Source: Byssothecium circinans (taxonomy: Eukaryota > Ascomycota > Dothideomycetes > Pleosporales > Massarinaceae). From it: 64,000 nt of DNA. Below are positions 54,651 through 64,000 of the stretch, piece after piece. The notes beneath the pieces are model-generated. The model had not been told where the DNA came from and searched no databases. It worked only from the letters and a program-made list of their open reading frames with translations. The first letter of the stretch is position 1, and each line of letters opens with the position of its first letter. The stretch covers positions 35,061 through 99,060 of the forward strand of contig ML976981.1 in assembly GCA_010015675.1 (NCBI GenBank), given 5' to 3'. The translations under genes were made by a program, and so were the position numbers.

Positions 54651-54789
54651 AGATGGCGCTGACGTGACAAGAAATCTCGGCGCTATGGAGCATCCATTAA
54701 CATCTTGTCGCCAACAGTGAGTATTGGACTAGCCCTATTCAGACAGATGCGCATTTCAGTGGTGCTCCCACGCTAACAGGGTATTCTCC

Positions 54790-54981
54790 CCCCGGCTCGG
54801 GTGCCTGGCGTCACGGGGCTTGAAAGGGTGGCACGACCACGCTTTGATATATTTTATATGAGGAAAATCCTGGCTACCCCCTAGGCGCCACAAAACTGGG
54901 TATTTCACGCTAGACACCCGAGCCGGGGTATATCAAAGCATGGCCACTCTTTCAAGCCCCATGACGCTAAGCACCCGAGGG
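54790..54981. mobile_element. Small inverted-repeat (MITE-like) element
   Basis: Terminal arms CCCCGGCTCGGGTGCCTGGC (from 54790) and the reverse complement of CACGCTAGACACCCGAGCCG (ending near 54928) match with two differences. To its right, 54929-54981 is an inverted copy of the element's own left interior (GGGGCTTGAAAGGGTGGC pairs with GCCACTCTTTCAAGCCCC). The whole can fold into a long hairpin. No coding capacity, so a non-autonomous element or its rearranged remnant is the simplest reading. Confidence 0.65.
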
Positions 54982-56142
54982 CGACTGTATGTAGTATGTA
55001 CATGCGCAGTACAGGGGGGGATGTGCAGTACTGGGGGAGATATGCAGAATAGGAGACCTTAGGAGATACTAAAAACAACGTAAATCACAAATGCAGCTGA
55101 TCACTCCTCCATAAATGCGTAAAATGAGATTACGTAGATGTGATCTTTATGTAATGGTGTTAACTATGCCCCTAAACACGGCAGCGACAGAACAGCGCTT
55201 TCCTCACTTTGTATCTCGATCGACCGGACTTTCTTTCAGCAGCATGATTGCTATATTTCATCTCACACTGCTCTTCATAGTCGCAAAGGCGTAAAATGCA
55301 GAGTATGAATATGTGGTTATTGGATCTGGTCCAGGAGGCACCTGCGTACGTTCAGTCTTTTCAACAACATCACGGAAGAAAGCCGTCACTGACTGTTGAC
55401 AGATAAAATCTAGCTCAAGCGGGCCACTCCGTATTCTTAATTGAGGCAGGCGAAAAACGACGGCAATACCTTAGTACAGCAAATTCCTAGTTTGTACGAA
55501 ATTCTCTCACCCTAATTAAGCTCCGCAGTGCTCCAAACATCCACTAACAGTAACAAAGTGCTAGCGCATCTGCAGAAGATCTAACTAGGTCCTGGGAGTT
55601 CTTCGTTAACTACTACAAGGGCACTTAGCAAGCGTACCACGATAGTAAGTATACATGGCGTCTTACTAACGGTGACTACTATGTTAGCATGAATCCACCC
55701 TAAGCCACTAAGCCTCTTAGCATTTATACACTTGTGTAGGTAAGTTAGATAGTTATAGTTAACATAATGCTATAAACTTTATAATGCTAGCGGATAATAA
55801 CTAGGAGTTTATCATAAACTTAACTAGAGACGCAAGTTAGAGCGCTGATATAATATAAGGCTACTATAAGAAGATTAAGGTTAATAAGTATGTTAAGCGC
55901 AACGTTTTAGAGGTTGCGGGACATAGCTTTAAAGTATTCCTAGTAAAGGAAGCATTTAGGAGATTTCTAATTATAGCTAGTATAAGGTTAGGCTTCTTAA
56001 TAAGTAGCCTAGATTTATAGACTACCTTTATTACCTTAATTATACTAGTAGCCCTAATCACCCTAACTACACTAAGGCTATCTATAAGCTATATTAGCTA
56101 TGACTATTATAAGTAGATATAATAAAAAGTAACGCTATAGTA

Positions 56143-57176
56143 ACGTAAAGCACCACCGAACCGCTCAAAAGCTTGGCAAGGAAAATCAAATATTCAACCT
56201 TTAATAACAATTTAAATATAAGAGATATTAAGCTGAAATTTTAAATACAGATATATATAATATAGATCTAAAAGGTTATAAAAAAATATTCTTGGATTTC
56301 TAATTTCTTAGTAAGCTATATTAGTATAGAATAAAGTTACTCGCCTAAGCTTTATACCCTACAACACCTAATAAACTAGCTTAATAAATTATAATAACTT
56401 TAGAGCTAGTTTATATATATATAATATACCTATTAGTACTAAAATTATAGCGTGCAGCCTAGACCTATTAGAGAACTAGCGTAGAGAGGATAGAGATACC
56501 TAATATTAGAAATATATAATAAAGCTTTTTATTTAACTAGATATTATTACTTCTAGCCTATAGATATCTTTTATATATATATATAGAAGTAATATAAATA
56601 GTTAGCTACTAGAAATTAGCTTATATAAGCTTTATAATAAGGCAGTGTCTAAATTTTCTAAAAACCTACACTTCCTAAGCTAGATCCTTAGTTTTAGAGG
56701 TAATTACTTACTTTAAGCTTATATATAGCTTTATTTAGTATATACTATATCCCTCTTATAGAAGGAACTATAGGTTTCTAATATATATAACTTTATTTAG
56801 AAGGTTTTCTAATTTTTTATACCCCCTACCTTCTACCTACTATAATAGCGTTAAATCTAGGCTGCACGCTATAATAACTTAATAGCTACTAACTAATATA
56901 CTAATAAGTATGTCCTAAAAGTTATATAGCCTATTAGTAACGTTTAGCTATTAATCTATAGGTAAAGGTAGGTTTTACCTAAGATTTCTTCTTTTACTAA
57001 TAACTATTTTATTACGTAAGCTATAGCTACAAAATTTTAATAGCTATTAGATTATATATATATCTATCTAGGTTTAAAATTTCAAAAGAAAATATTAAGG
57101 TTTAGCTTTGTTATTAAGATATCCTGTTTTGATTTTCCAATGCCAAGCTTTTGAGCGGTTCGGTGGTGCTTTACGT
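56143..57176. mobile_element. TIR DNA transposon (Tc1/mariner-like ends, non-autonomous or decayed)
   Basis: 1034 bp flanked by a TA duplication (56141-56142 and 57177-57178). The ends are inverted repeats: ACGTAAAGCACCACCGAACC followed by GCTCAAAAGCTTGGC at the left, and the exact complement at the right. Weaker inverted similarity extends to about 125 bp. TA target duplication with such ends fits the Tc1/mariner superfamily (Fot1/pogo-like in fungi). No transposase frame survives; the interior is AT-rich. A third copy of the same end begins at 63838 in the opposite orientation. Confidence 0.88.
56445..56874. mobile_element. Nested TIR element inside the transposon
   Basis: Perfect 19-bp inverted repeats TTATAGCGTGCAGCCTAGA (56445-56463) and its complement (56856-56874) bound about 430 bp within the larger element. 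The ends are unrelated to the outer TIRs, and a second hairpin (TTATTACTTCTA near 56545 with its complement near 56585) lies inside. A nested non-autonomous insertion is likely. Confidence 0.65.
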
Positions 57177-58521
57177 TAGTACCTATTCTAACCTCTATAA
57201 TATAGTTAATACCTTTAGTATAGATAGTACCCTACGCTATCCTATAGCTATTAGTAATAGTTTACTTACTATAAAGGTCCTCTTTAATACCTCTAGACTT
57301 AGCCTTTATACTATAGGAGTAGCTTACTTCTAATACTAAGTACTCTATAAAGCTAACTACTAGAATAATAGCCTATAGCGCAGAAACCTATCTATACTAA
57401 TAGTAATATACAAAGTTATTATTATAGATAGCACTTTTAACACCTCTTAGATCCTAAAACTAAGTAGTGTTAGTCTCTGTACTAAGCTTAAGAGTTTTAA
57501 TATTACTATTATTTACGCTATAGGCATAAATCTCTAAGATAATTATAAAGTAGGTATTTATATTAAAACTACTTTACCTTATAGCTCTCCTTTAAGAAAC
57601 TATACGTTCCTTATACCTAGTAACCTATATCTATAAGAGTAGAGTAAATATAGTACTAGTATATATAGTAGTAGTAGTTTACTTATATCCTTTATCTACC
57701 TTACTAATATTACTAAGAATACTAATATAGATCTATATATATTTAGTACTATTAGTACTATCTTTAACTTTACTAATTATTATATGCGTTATCTAGAAGG
57801 TTAAATAATAGTAAGTAAATACTATAATATTATATTTCTAAGTATCTTATAATTATATCTATACTATATTACTTAGTATTAGTCTAGATAAACTAGTAGT
57901 AAGTATACTACCTAAGGTAGCTTAATATATCTATACGCGTAATACGTAGGTAATACTAATAATACTCTATTAAAAATAAGGCTAATAGAACTACCTATAA
58001 TTAATATTATTAATTACGTAGTACTAGGGGGATCTCTCTAGATAAAGAGCTTATACTAAAGCTCTATATACTATAGTTAGTACCTATTAAGCCCTTATAT
58101 ATTTACTACCTAGTACTTATTATTACTCTTAGTAGTATAGGCCTTAATATAGGTATACTTATAGTTAAACTTATTATCCTTAGTACTAATAAACTACTTT
58201 ATACTCTTAGAGCTATAGTAGGAGTAGTAGAGGGGTATATAAGTAAAGCTAAATTACTAGCTAGAGTAGATAAAAGTATACTAAGTAAGTATAAAGGGAG
58301 TTAAGGGGTTATATAAAGTAGAGAAAGCTATAATTAAGGTTTAAGGTAGCTATTACTAGGTATACTAATAGCTTAATAGTAGCTTAATATTAGCTAAGCT
58401 TAGTAGGTTTATACTATTTATTTCTACTTTAGCCTATGCTAGCTAATATAATATTATATTACCTTAGATATCTACTTATTATATACTTACTACTAGTTAT
58501 ATTACTATTACTAACGCTATA

Positions 58522-58553
58522 GCTAAGTTAAGTTAAGTTAAGTTAAGTTAAGT
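58522..58553 (+). repeat. (AAGTT)n microsatellite
   Basis: About six tandem copies of AAGTT in the AT-rich tract just upstream of the APN2 pseudogene. Confidence 0.8.
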
Positions 58554-58594
58554 AGCTAGTAAAGTAACTAGAGCTACTTATTAGCTTTATTACT

Positions 58595-60560
58595 ATACTA
58601 TAGTCTATATTACTACCTAGAATATAAATAATATCTATAACTTATTTAGCTGCTAGCTATAGTATAAGAAGCGTACCTTTAATACTATATTTAATATCCT
58701 AGAAGCTAATATTATTATTATATAAGAGCTAAAGATCTAGTATAAAGACTTTATTAATAATATAGTACTAGTCTTTAGATAGAAGTATTACTTTAGTCTA
58801 CTTAAGTATAAGAAAGGTAATTTTATATCTATACTTATATCTATGCTTATACCTCTTTATCTTACTTTTATAATACTAACTACCTTTAGTAATATAGAAG
58901 GCTTATTACTAATAGCTATCTAAAGTACTTAGGTATTAGTATCTATATATATTAATTTATCTATGCTCTTATCTATACTAAAGAGGGCCTACTTAGAGTA
59001 CTCTACTTACCTAGCTTATTAACTATATACTAAGAGCTACCTAAAAATATCTATATTAGTAGCTACTTACACCTATCTAGATTACTAAACTTAGCGTTAA
59101 TACTATATTACTAAATATAGAAAGCTACTATCTAGTCTTAGAATTCTTAGCTTTTATCCTCTTTAGTATCTATAGCCTAGCTAATAGTAATAGCTTATAA
59201 GATAACTTTTACTATAGCTTCCTTACTATACTTAATATCTATATCTATAACCTTACTTAAATAAGTAAAAGAGTTATTCTAATAAGTAACCTTAATATTT
59301 CTAAAGAAAAGATTAATATAGCTAAGGTAGAAGAGAGTATATACTAAGAGGGTATTATATATAAGGACTATTTTAATACCCCTAACTAACGTATTTTTAA
59401 CTAACTCCTTAAATATAGAAAGGTTCTTAGTAAAAAAGAGCTAGTACTTTAGAATCTTTATTATAAGTTCTACCTAGACTATAAGAGCATATATACGCAC
59501 TAAAAGTAAAAGATTAATATATAGCTAGGAAACTTTAGTTTATATATTAACTTTATACTTTATAGTCTAAGGATAAAGTTATAGTTTACTAATACTAATA
59601 TATAGAAAGGTCTTATAGGTTTAGATTACTACCTTATCTATATATTAACTAAGGACGTTCTAGACTATAAAGAGGAGTAAATATATATTCTTAATATCTT
59701 AAATCTACCTAATATATTTAAATATAGAGTATAAGTATATAAGTTAACTTCTTTAGAATATATACTACTACTATAAGGTAGGCTTTTACTAGAGTTTAAT
59801 AAATATTAAAGTATTAAAGATATATTTAAAAAGAAGATAGCTATCTTAATAGTATTACTAGGTCTACTAGTATTATATTATAGCTTATAGATACTAGATA
59901 TAGTAGACTCTTTTTTATCTCTACTAACTATTTTAAATACTAAGCCTATAAAGTCTCTAAGCTTACTAAATTTATATAAAAAATAGCTCTTACTTAACCT
60001 ATAACTATTAAGACTACTAAAGAAGAATAAGTTTAATATAAGTACTTTAATAAACCTACTAGCTTTATTAGCTAAGGGATAGTAATTACTAAGAGGCTTT
60101 TTTATACTAAAGAATACTATAGCTCCTAAATTTAATAAAAGTAATACTTATCTACTAAATACCTCTATAGTAACTCTTATTATTGCTAATACTTTATTAC
60201 TACTATAGCTTTTCTTTCTCTACCTACTTCTATTACTAAAACCTTAGTTAACCTATAAGATTCTAAAGAGTTATAGATAAAGTTATTCTTTAAGAAGTTA
60301 TCCTTATAATATAAGGGGTATAATAAGCTATATATAAGCCTTAAAACTAAGAAGCCTAGCGTTAATTATAGCTAAATATTCTAGATATATTCCTAGCAAG
60401 TCTAACTAGCTATAATAGATTATTATTATACTTATTCTAACTTTTATAGACCTATTAGCCCTTCTAGATAAAAGGAGATAGGTATATAGTAATATTATAA
60501 GACTTTTATATAGGTAAGTAATTAGAATACGCTAGTGTAATAGCTAGGCCGTCTAAGATA
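58595..60560 (+). pseudogene. APN2: RIP-mutated APN2 (DNA-(apurinic/apyrimidinic site) lyase 2)
   Basis: A full-length AP endonuclease 2 can be followed in one strand through dozens of stops. N-terminus: ITT(stop)NINNIYNLFS, corresponding to the ITTWNVNGIRN start of the EEP nuclease domain. Then KKRTFNTIFNILEANIIII, (stop)ELKI (catalytic QELK position) and FFSLPKHKKG-like FSLLKYKKG. Mid-domain: YLVLEFLAFILFSIYSLANS, RVILISNLNISKEKINIAKV (TGDLNI site), then YINFILYSL and GLIGLDYYLIY (GSDHCP site). The C-terminal GRF zinc finger is readable as SLKTKKPSVNYS(stop)IF, followed by KEIGI(stop)(stop)YYKTFI(stop)VSN at about 60470-60530. Trp codons are TAG throughout. An intron follows LKYKKG near 58818. 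It lies directly downstream of, and convergent with, MAT1-2-1, its classic neighbour. Confidence 0.9.
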
Positions 60561-60816
60561 ATAATTATAGTATAGAATAATAGAGAGTAGTACTATTAGA
60601 AAATAAAACCCTATCTAATCTAAAGTAAAGAATATACTAAATAGGTAATAAGGTCTTTCTATATATACGTCCTTTAGATACTTTACTAGGCTAGAGTTAT
60701 AGTAGAAAGAAAGATTATAGCATCTTAGCTTATTACTTTTAGGTCTTGAGCGTCTTATACATAGGTCTTATAGCAGAATATAATACAAATACGTTAACAC
60801 AATTTACTAAAACGAT
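60561..60816. other. Right edge of the AT-rich tract
   Basis: Presumed 3' flank of APN2. The RIP-like composition fades at about 60770 and normal base use resumes from about 60840. No gene. Confidence 0.5.
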
Positions 60817-61098
60817 TCAATTGAGAATTACTAAGTAGAGAATAAGGGCTAGTTTTAGGAGTATGCGCCATGCATGCCGGGTGTATGTAAGGGAACGCCA
60901 GGAAGGGGGCAAAACTAGGATACTAAAACAGTGAAGTAGGCCGCCTAGTAGGATATACGGGAAAGCAATCCATCGCCAGATAGTAGGAAGCTCGTGAGCA
61001 GGCATACTATAAGACCAAGAATAGGTGCAGGCGACAGATACGCATGTAATTAGGGCGGCCGAGGCGGGAATCGCCGAGAGTTGAAAGATAGTGTGGTG
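60817..61098 (-). pseudogene. Possible remnant of a small membrane protein gene 3' of MAT1-2-1
   Basis: An open frame contains HHTIFQLSAIPASAALITCV, a first hydrophobic segment, then MPAHELPTIWRWIAFPYILL and GGLLHCFSILVLPPSWRS, and a last hydrophobic segment ending LILYLVILN at a stop at 60817. A start could be the Met at 61005 (62 aa), or the frame may be the 3' exon of a longer gene whose 5' part is missing. Composition is normal, unlike the adjacent RIP tract. I do not recognise the family. It could also be an idiomorph-specific accessory gene. Confidence 0.35.
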
Positions 61099-61199
61099 AA
61101 GGCAGTTAGGTGTTGATTTTGTGCCAACATGGTGATGGGGGTTTTGGGGAATGCCGGTAAAAGGATTGGGGTACGACCGACAAAACCATAGGTTGGATA

Positions 61200-62333
61200 C
61201 TAATAAGTATCCGTGTAGGGTGATGGCATCGTGACGGTCCTGTCAGCGTCATCACGGAACGCGAAGGTCTCATCGTTGAAGATGTCTGGTCCGAAAGTGG
61301 CACCGAACTGGCCTTCAAGCAGATCGTGCCTGCCAAACTCAAGGTCCTGGAATTCAAAGGCGAAAGCCATCTGGGACTCATCATGGCCATCGTTGCTGTT
61401 GGTCTCAGCCAAGGAAGTGACGCCAGTGGGAAGTGTGCTGTTGATGTTTGTAGCGATGGCATCCGCAGCGGTCGTCAAGTCCGTGCCCGTAGTGGACATG
61501 GACGGCGTCGAGTTGAGGAAAGAATTGAAGTCGACAATGGTTGGCATGGCGGTAGCAGTCTGGGCGGGAGAGGTGACGGCAGCAGACTGGGTAGACTTGC
61601 GAGATTGACGCTTCTTCTTCTGTCCGGGCTTTCGAGGTGCGTACTTGTAGTTGGGATACATGCGTCGATGCTCAGCTTTGGCATCGGCGGCTGCCTTGCG
61701 CCAGGTGTTCTTTTCTTCGAGAGACATCTGATGGTTCCAGTAGTGGGAGCATTCTTTGGCTGCGACGAGTTAGTAAGATTCAATGCAGTTGATGGGGCGG
61801 GGGGTGATGGCCTCATAGAGGGATCGACAAGGCTACTTACATATGTCCTGGACACTCTTGTGGGGGTCCGCGGCCTTGAGCTGCTTGTGCTTGGCGTCGC
61901 GATACAACATCCAGCAATTCATTGGGCGCGGAGGGTTCTTGCGACCAGCGACCGTCGACTGAGATGTAGCCGTGTGGGGCTTTGCGATCTCCAGAGTGAG
62001 GGCGTCGGCTGAAAGTTGGAGGTCAGGGTTGCGCTGCGACTCAGTCTCATCGGCAAAGTGCACGACCGTGCAACCCTCGCGACTATTGTAGGAGACAGCG
62101 ACATTCTTGTTCAGTGACAGCGACAGCTGCTTCGCAAGATAGCCAGCCGCAAGAGTAGAGCCGATGCACTCTGCAATGCAGCCAGGCAGCATGACAGGCT
62201 GGCCATTGCGCCCGAGCAGGGCGTGACATTCGACGAGGCTGTTCTGAAATGCCGAGAGCCTCTGGAGGTCGGTATCGGTGAGCGCGCGAGGCTCGAAGGT
62301 GGCCGTAGGGGCGAGCAAGACGTTGGTATCCAT
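61200..62333 (-). CDS. MAT1-2-1: Mating-type protein MAT1-2-1 (HMG-box transcription factor)
   Basis: Two exons (62333-61841, 61759-61200) give 350 aa. The start [15 protein letters not shown] is chosen because the ORF upstream looks like leader. The MATA-HMG box begins at about residue 134 with [20 protein letters not shown], continues [11 protein letters not shown], and after the 81-nt intron reads [20 protein letters not shown] and [15 protein letters not shown], ending in a basic [12 protein letters not shown]. The intron splits a Ser codon within the box, the position conserved in ascomycete MAT1-2-1 genes. The acidic C-tail is unconserved. The protein is the nuclear regulator that sets MAT1-2 identity and controls pheromone and sexual genes. 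The frame is intact and not RIP-mutated, although APN2 next to it is. Confidence 0.95.
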
Positions 62334-63837
62334 GGCTGGAACACTATCGCAGGAGATGAGTCGTTGTAAGATTGAAAACAGACTTGGATGGGCAATTGAT
62401 GTAAAGAAGACGAAGTTGGAGTTAGAGTTGGGGGAAGAGAAGTCGCAGGTGAGCGTGCCGCTAGTAAAGGTGAGAGCATTCACGGCCGGTCTGAGCGTTC
62501 ACGGCCGTCACCTTCACTACGGATTGTCGCAAGCCCCACTTTAAGCAGTTGCCTAGCGCGTGTGGAAGGGCTAAAGGTCTTCTGAGGCTGTGTTTCGAGG
62601 ATTGGTACCTCGTGCAAACGGAGCGCAGCAGGCAGCCAAGGGTTGGAGCACGAGGTGAAGTCGAGCGACGTCTCTCACTAAGCATACGGTCAGCGTTGTC
62701 TGATGTTCCTCTATGTGCAAGGGTTTTGCAGAACTCGCGGCGCCATAAGGTGTCGGCGCCGTTTTTTGGCTTGTGAGTTTTTCGAGGAGAACAAAGTGTC
62801 AACAGAGCCGATTGATGTGTACAGTACAAGCGTACCGGGAAACTTTCGAGAGAGCCAAAATAGTGGAAGGACAAAGGGAAGCAGCGACAAGAGCACGGTA
62901 GGAGATTGAGCGCACAACTTACAGTTGCTGACCTGCTAGGCCGTTAAGCCGATGGGAGAAGATTGAGGTACCGTATTCAAGCTATGTGACTCGGCGCACA
63001 TTTGGTGACTAGTGGTGATGTGCTACTCAATATCGTAGCCCTAGCGGCCCACTGTATATCTCTTCAACGTACCGGGGCCTATACTATGGTTGATTGCGAT
63101 GCGCGCGGCTTGGAGCTCTTTGTTGGTTATGATATGACTCCGCATAGGAATGAGCGGCAAGTTGAAATAGATAAAGGGGCGCTCGGAACGTTGATAGCTT
63201 TGTCTCAAATCAAACCAAGACATCGGTCATGGCGCGACGCCACTTAAAATGAATGTTACTGATATCTAAAGGTTAGCTGCGAAAGGTAGTTAAAAAGTAA
63301 CATCATACAGGTCCTCAAACATGCATCTCATACATCGGCTATCCAGGTAGCTCAAGGTACCTTGAACCTCGGGGTTGAAATTCACTGGAATGCACAATCT
63401 GCGTGCCAAAGCACGTGTGCCTTTCTTTGATGACCATATGTGCACCAATCGAGAAGTCGGTACATGAAGCAAATTATGGGTGTTTGTAGTTAGGTATTGG
63501 CAAGATGATTTATGTTGAAATCTCTCGTCAGATCAGACGATGTTTGAAAAGACTTCTTACATAATTAACTAATTAGATAGGTACCAAGGATCACCCTAAA
63601 ACGCCCACTAACGTGTCCGTGCGCGTGATGCGTGGATTCGCGTGATGCACTGCTTTTTACTAGGAAAATCAAAGAAAATAAGTAACTTTAAAGCTATATA
63701 ACTCTTTAACTACCTTTTCTTTTTAAAAGCTTCCTTAACTAAAGTTATAGAGAAAGACTATCTCTATAACTCTAGAATTTTAGTTTTCTAATAATAATTA
63801 GTTTTAAGAAAAAAGTATAAAAGTACTAAAACTATTA
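62334..63837. other. Region upstream of MAT1-2-1
   Basis: 1.5 kb containing the MAT1-2-1 promoter. A short near-repeat of CGTTCACGGC occurs twice near 62480-62510. Short ORFs have no motifs. From about 63640 composition turns AT-rich again toward the transposon. No gene supported. Confidence 0.4.
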
Positions 63838-64000
63838 ACGTAAAGCACCACCGAACCGCCCACACCACCAAACCGCCCACACCACCGAACCGCTCAAAAG
63901 CTTGGTATTGGAAAATCAAAACAGGATATCTTAATAACAAAGCTAAACCTTAATATTTTCTTTTGAAATTTTAAACCTAGATAGATATATATATAATCTA
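63838..64000 (+). mobile_element. Second copy of the TIR transposon, partial at window edge
   Basis: Begins ACGTAAAGCACCACCGAACC after a TA (63836-63837) and matches the reverse complement of the right end of the 56143-57176 element over more than 100 bp, past GAAATTTTAAACCTAGATAG. An expansion lies inside the terminal repeat: a ~17-18 bp CACACCACC(G/A)AACCGCC unit is present about three times where the other copy has one. The element continues past the window. Confidence 0.85.

Follow-up and report, generated by a model that had tools for sequence, protein, structure and literature searches.

Intact mating-type genes on two contigs and a flank scarred by repeat-induced point mutation in Byssothecium circinans

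An APN2 relic and two intact mating-type genes

The DNA analysed here is a window of 64,000 nucleotides from the fungus Byssothecium circinans (Massarinaceae, Pleosporales), in which an intact MAT1-2-1 mating-type gene lies next to a relic of the DNA repair gene APN2. The window is on C5, a contig of 1.59 Mb in the single assembly used, a draft of 109 contigs, and an intact counterpart of the relic lies on a different contig, C10, of 1.30 Mb. In searches of the genome only the best candidates were scored. The features of the window are collected in Table 1.

MAT1-2-1 is made up of two exons (62333-61841 and 61759-61200) and has an HMG box with an E value of 6.8e-18. An earlier note on this DNA had described the gene as untouched and about 640 nt from the relic; the open frame of 350 aa confirms the first statement, and the two genes are indeed close, with an actual gap of 662 nt. 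Position 62333, the end coordinate of that note, is the MAT1-2-1 start codon. The protein is 100% identical to the database protein P0121 over 87% of the query, the database model having 303 aa. The contig given with the database MAT1-2-1 has a length of 1,593,973, compared with 1,588,762 for C5 here.

Mapping the codons of the C10 gene onto the window, we observed 40 in-frame stops in the 598 codons of the APN2 relic, the first at codon 7, with 8 gapped codons and 279 residues unchanged. The stops fall on all 11 Trp codons, 17 of the 18 Gln codons, 11 of the 38 Arg codons and one Ser codon. For the alignment we used a purine/pyrimidine (RY) code, which is left unchanged by transitions. In this code the relic region and the intact copy are 98.6% identical over 3134 columns, with the best of 3094 shifted registers reaching 54.0%. 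The relic is real, far above chance. Apart from itself, its X-masked middle piece matched a single open copy in the genome, at C10:473007-473420 on the minus strand, with 48% identity (E 2.1e-33), and APN2 motifs can be seen by eye, in pieces, across the frame translations of the window. Because Pfam gave no match to three X-masked pieces of the relic, its identification goes through the alignment to C10. A full-length APN2 under stop-riddled, AT-rich DNA, with Trp and Gln codons turned into stops, is what the earlier note had claimed. It had given this DNA a length of about 2 kb; the DNA is AT-rich and stop-riddled as described, while the AT-rich block extends from about 55.5 to 60.86 kb and takes in other elements to the left of the relic.

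Table 1. Features of the window around the MAT1-2 idiomorph
Feature	Position	Strand	Remarks
Repeat piece ending at left breakpoint	57923..58012	+	repeat matches elsewhere in genome
RIP-saturated duplicate of C10:474736-471812	58011..60858	+	COX13 5' part, intergenic stretch, whole APN2, start of 3' flank
COX13 5' relic, cut at left breakpoint	58011..58292	-	alignment to C10 and reading of C10 translation
APN2 relic	58600..60537	+	exons 58600-58818, 58926-60396, 60451-60537
Shared MAT flank, lightly mutated	60859..61127		92% identity to C10:471689-471420
MAT1-2 idiomorph	61128..62455		without C10 counterpart, without sign of RIP
MAT1-2-1	61200..62333	-	350 aa, one intron (61840-61760) in HMG box, intact
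Shared right MAT flank, without RIP	62456..62649		83.5% identity to C10:469906-469713

Searching the genome for APN2 revealed a second, intact copy at C10:474094-472140, of 598 codons without a stop, which is 100% identical to a database protein of B. circinans (P0001, 598 aa). This protein has an Exo_endo_phos core (PF03372, E 1.6e-16) and a C-terminal GRF zinc ribbon, with residues 529-592 matching chain 5u6z_A, which we take to be an APE2 GRF structure. The Pfam GRF model gave no match anywhere in the genome or on the C10 APN2, and the controls were silent as well. The Exo_endo_phos profile had eight matches in the genome, one of them part of the C10 APN2. MAT1-1-1 adjoins this gene (470083-470326, with exon 2 from 470374); it is intact, encodes 362 aa, and its alpha box was also found by the genome profile search. 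Beyond APN2 the row on C10 continues with COX13, one exon of which matches COX6A (PF02046, E 1.2e-23), then APC5 and then a mitochondrial carrier. APC5 was named from its translation by eye, Pfam being without a match on the one open frame scanned. The sole matched place of SLA2 is C10:948.6-949.1 kb, about 0.48 Mb from the MAT locus. NCBI names both MAT proteins 'hypothetical protein', and UniRef names them 'Mating-type protein MAT-1' (MAT1-1-1) and HMG box protein.

MAT1-1-1 and MAT1-2-1 are both present and intact in this one assembly. A genome search for the HMG box gave seven matches, which fall at six places; those on C44 and C8 were inspected and look by eye like other HMG factors, and the further places include C28, C40 and C25. 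On this inspection other HMG genes were set aside as a second MAT gene. A 5 kb DNA query from C10 matched only C10 and C5, with no third copy of the MAT flank. The intact 598-codon APN2 rules out the loss of this gene, and with it of a DNA repair enzyme, which the earlier note had considered. Its other suggestion, that with a second APN2 in the genome the MAT region had been duplicated and the copy in the window marked by repeat-induced point mutation (RIP), is supported; the MAT1-1-1 beside the other copy was beyond its view.

The copied segment and its mutations

Using blastn to compare the window and 30 kb of its right flank with C10:445001-505000, we obtained three matches, the longest between 58015-60865 and C10:474732-471810 (65%). 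In the RY code the long block begins at 58011, and the last matching runs on the two sides of the idiomorph stop at 61134 and 62633. The three shared blocks have the same order and orientation round both idiomorphs, and 127 bp between the RIPed block and the 60859-61127 flank are found at C10 only. The MAT1-2 idiomorph has neither a blastn nor an RY match in this stretch of C10, and its CpA, TpG and CpG densities resemble those of the rest of the window. The whole copied segment covers 58011-62649, or 4.6 kb, and one of its ends is inside COX13.

The RIP indices, which the earlier note had expected to stand out here, are TpA/ApT 1.85 and (CpA+TpG)/(ApC+GpT) 0.12 in 56001-60700, at 25% GC, compared with 0.65, 1.25 and 53% in 1-54000. 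The C10 copy has normal indices and no stop in the APN2 frame. Over the 2846 columns of 58011-60858 we counted 955 differences from C10, of which 894 are C>T or G>A, 21 are transitions in the reverse direction and 40 are transversions. The mutated sites comprise 373 of 394 CpA, 386 of 430 CpG, 79 of 414 CpC and 56 of 368 CpT. These are the one-way C>T/G>A changes with a preference for CpA, in a duplicate, that mark RIP.

CpG was lost as well; in an alternative alignment 187 CpG sites read TpA and 13 are unchanged. The same equality of CpG and CpA loss is seen in a relic resembling a GMC-type oxidoreductase further left, both in its right part (CpA 72/79, CpG 85/104) and in its left part, 55500-56137 (CpA 52/88, CpG 53/91). 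Equal CpG loss in two unrelated relics (55500-60858) possibly means that RIP acts in a wider sequence context in this fungus, or that methylated cytosines decayed afterwards. A search for cytosine methyltransferases gave two DNA_methylase matches, both on C1, as candidates for a RID-type or DIM-2 enzyme. The part of the literature account seen describes a CpA signature in elements of Leptosphaeria maculans and CpG signatures in Tuber and some basidiomycetes (PMC4352252); in contrast to the L. maculans signature as given there, CpG in the Byssothecium relic is hit as often as CpA.

The level of mutation was followed along the segment as the conversion of CpA+TpG to TpA per 200 bp bin from 58000, which is 28/29, 25/28, 26/28, 35/35, 29/31, 24/24, 23/23, 27/29, 28/30, 26/26, 21/24, 25/26, 25/26, 24/30, 10/27 and 5/22. 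The loss is flat over 58000-60599 (342/359). The main fall in RIP comes just past 60858, near the 127 bp gap in homology to C10, preceded by unmutated CpA at 60760, 60774 and 60798 and then mutated sites again up to 60856. Mutated CpA sites number 10 of 42 in the 60859-61127 flank and 3 of 29 in the 194-column right flank. In Neurospora, homology must extend over at least a few hundred bases for RIP to occur.

Several repeats surround the segment. Among the eight non-self matches of the repeat at 57923-58012, seven (82-93%; C71, C6, C13, C74, C96) stop at 58012, and the remaining one, on C28, is part of a different relic. The repeat ends at the breakpoint, as though the MAT segment had become attached within a transposable element. 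The RIPed relic at 55163-57771 reads by eye like a GMC-type oxidoreductase, is related to C28:509.8-511.3 kb (64-74%) and ends before the MAT segment. It is split by a 1 kb element resembling a miniature inverted-repeat transposable element (MITE) at 56138-57181, which has terminal inverted repeats of about 48 nt and dozens of copies, nearly full-length, at 85-97% identity among the best 40 of 493 candidates. To the right of MAT1-2 a second MITE-like copy starts at 63833 in the opposite orientation and runs off the window; the 63609-63832 stretch is the end of another repeat family, whose ends elsewhere form inverted pairs about 485 nt apart. A short repeat at 54785-54928 has partial matches on C1, C22, C11, C12, C27 and C75. 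In a genome search with the right flank, 62440-63832, all matches other than self among the best 40 of 126 candidates were repeats, and the known C10 match was not among them. A composite transposon round the segment was considered on account of the two MITE-like copies (57048-57168 and 63880-64000, inverted, 99%), but elements of this kind are common here, the right copy passes into masked sequence and a target duplication has not come to light, and we make no such claim.

Relatives and known two-locus systems

In relatives, linkage of MAT and APN2 was judged from longest contigs of equal length, counted by hand over the 120 APN2 hits listed out of 2093; for many MAT hits the table gives no contig. 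An exact match in length to the contig of a listed APN2 hit is seen for 11 of the 30 MAT1-2-1 hits and for 20 of the 74 MAT1-1-1 hits, B. circinans itself being among these 20. As far as equal-length contigs show, this agrees with the usual linkage of APN2 and MAT stated in the earlier note. The nearest named relative by APN2 is Massarina eburnea (73% identity, among the matches listed), with APN2 and MAT1-1-1 on equal-length contigs; it is not among the 30 MAT1-2-1 hits, though it is among the MAT1-1-1 hits. In Didymella exigua, Lindgomyces ingoldianus and Zopfia rhizophila the contigs that carry the two MAT genes and APN2 are all equal in length, which suggests linked homothallism in these species.

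With one canonical locus and a second that carries decayed duplicates of flank genes, B. circinans has a probable unlinked MAT duplication. The closest precedent found, in the sections seen of each source cited here, is Neosartorya fischeri (Rydholm et al. 2007, via PMC4895823). There the alpha gene occupies the original locus, whose flank genes are intact, and the HMG gene is at a separate locus flanked by the pseudogenes dSLA2 and dAPN1, with a transposase-like sequence upstream. The two fungi share a canonical alpha locus and a separate HMG locus with duplicated, decayed flank genes (PMC4895823). In the N. fischeri account both flank genes are present as pseudogenes (PMC4895823), whereas in Byssothecium one side has APN2 together with part of COX13, and the copied flank opposite is no longer than 194 bp. 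Homothallic Neofusicoccum genomes similarly contain both MAT types, apart or on different scaffolds, and provide the APN2-COX-APC5 reference row; unlike in Byssothecium, no RIP-killed flank duplicates are met in the portion of that account seen (PMC8905617). Pyronema confluens also has two MAT loci that are not close together, with APN2 near one only, and an APN2 relic as in Byssothecium is not met in the corresponding portion of its account (PMC3778014). In A. nidulans the MAT genes are apart from each other, according to the part seen (PMC2835752). The layout of an unlinked MAT duplication is already known; it is the readable order of events that adds interest here. Within the titles and abstract starts of the open-licence literature we found no report of MAT loci in Byssothecium or of a RIPed APN2 duplicate beside MAT, and mating is in the title of none of the 18 papers naming B. 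circinans.

Origin of the two MAT loci

We consider it very probable that B. circinans has the layout of a homothallic fungus, with MAT1-1 at the ancestral APC5-COX13-APN2 locus on C10, MAT1-2 at a second site on C5 and RIP having scarred the copied flank. Judged from its genes, the fungus would be self-fertile. In the course we propose, the segment would have been copied from a MAT1-2 chromosome into C5, and a genome would then have combined this MAT1-2 with the MAT1-1 of C10. RIP may have recognised the long flank shared in this configuration and mutated the C5 copy, while MAT1-2-1 would have escaped for want of a partner sequence. RIP would have acted when C10 carried MAT1-1, because a MAT1-2 at C10 would have let the entire 4.6 kb pair. 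The APN2 and COX13 of C10 may owe their clean state to a cross with a nucleus in which the C5 insertion was absent, or to selection for spores that were viable. A selfing nucleus would expose both copies, and so either C10 would have been restored by a cross or the spores with a damaged COX13/APN2 pair would have been lost. The transversion divergence of the long block is 1.4% (40/2846), compared with 27% divergence of the APN2 protein to M. eburnea, which points to a duplication later than the split from that species.

A number of observations weigh against this course. In Neurospora RIP normally alters both copies; here the C10 copy has been left untouched, with normal indices and an open frame, and the account needs an extra step to explain it. 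The right flank has 13 transversions in 194 columns, far above the 40 in 2846 of the long block, and therefore the segment is without a single age by transversions. At the edge of the idiomorph the MAT1-1 and MAT1-2 haplotypes may have differed for longer, which would account for this excess. The sparing of MAT1-2-1 could also have come about through selection against RIPed mating genes instead of missing homology. The remaining two observations concern the position of the mutations. A repeat end (57923-58012), the MITE-like element and the RIPed relic all lie directly left of the segment, from where spread is conceivable, and several CpA sites are unmutated already about 110 bp before the homology gap, with the fall of RIP not exactly at the gap.

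These last two would fit an APN2 copy that had been mutated by RIP spreading from the adjacent transposable elements and not as a duplicate. We regard this as unlikely, as the loss of CpA+TpG is flat for 2.6 kb with no gradient away from the repeats, RIP falls close to the interruption of homology, and within the segment it is the long shared block that is RIPed. It is a good deal less likely still that the assembly combines a pair of strains or nuclei that differ in mating type, with the two MAT genes belonging to separate haploid genomes. The assembly is a draft taken alone, without read depth, and 2010 N bases lie directly right of the window on C5, but MAT1-2 has other neighbours, on a contig of 1.6 Mb, and is not at the C10 position, a RIPed copy of 66% identity is unlike an ordinary allele, and at the two spots checked, the 5 kb MAT region of C10 and the 3.6 kb left flank on C5, there is no second near-identical copy. 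That C5 is the ancestral site and C10 derived is hardly credible: both loci have an open MAT gene, but C5 looks derived because its copy stops inside COX13, leaving only a truncated end, while the APC5-COX13-APN2 row is unbroken at C10 in the order given for Botryosphaeriaceae in the part seen (PMC8905617) and relatives have MAT and APN2 on equal-length contigs.

It has long been asked how outcrossing fungi give rise to self-fertile ones. Here a single genome lets one follow the copied segment, the locus it came from, one of its breakpoints and what resulted, and the footprint left by RIP suggests in which order things happened. As a joint claim, put forward tentatively as possible rather than probable, the scar would be a clock for the origin of selfing, left by a newly self-fertile lineage that still crossed, and the loss of flank homology through RIP would have stabilised homothallism. 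The scar would have been written after MAT1-2 joined the MAT1-1 genome, because MAT1-2-1 would otherwise have been paired and RIPed. If this is true, the clean C10 copy would mean that the newly self-fertile lineage was still crossing with nuclei lacking the insertion. With the long flank lowered to 66% identity, the MAT loci would lose homology for recombination, and genome defence would in this way stabilise homothallism. The finding opens two questions to testing: whether a duplicated MAT region encounters RIP in the first sexual cycles that it passes through, and whether homothallic lineages go on outcrossing while they are young.

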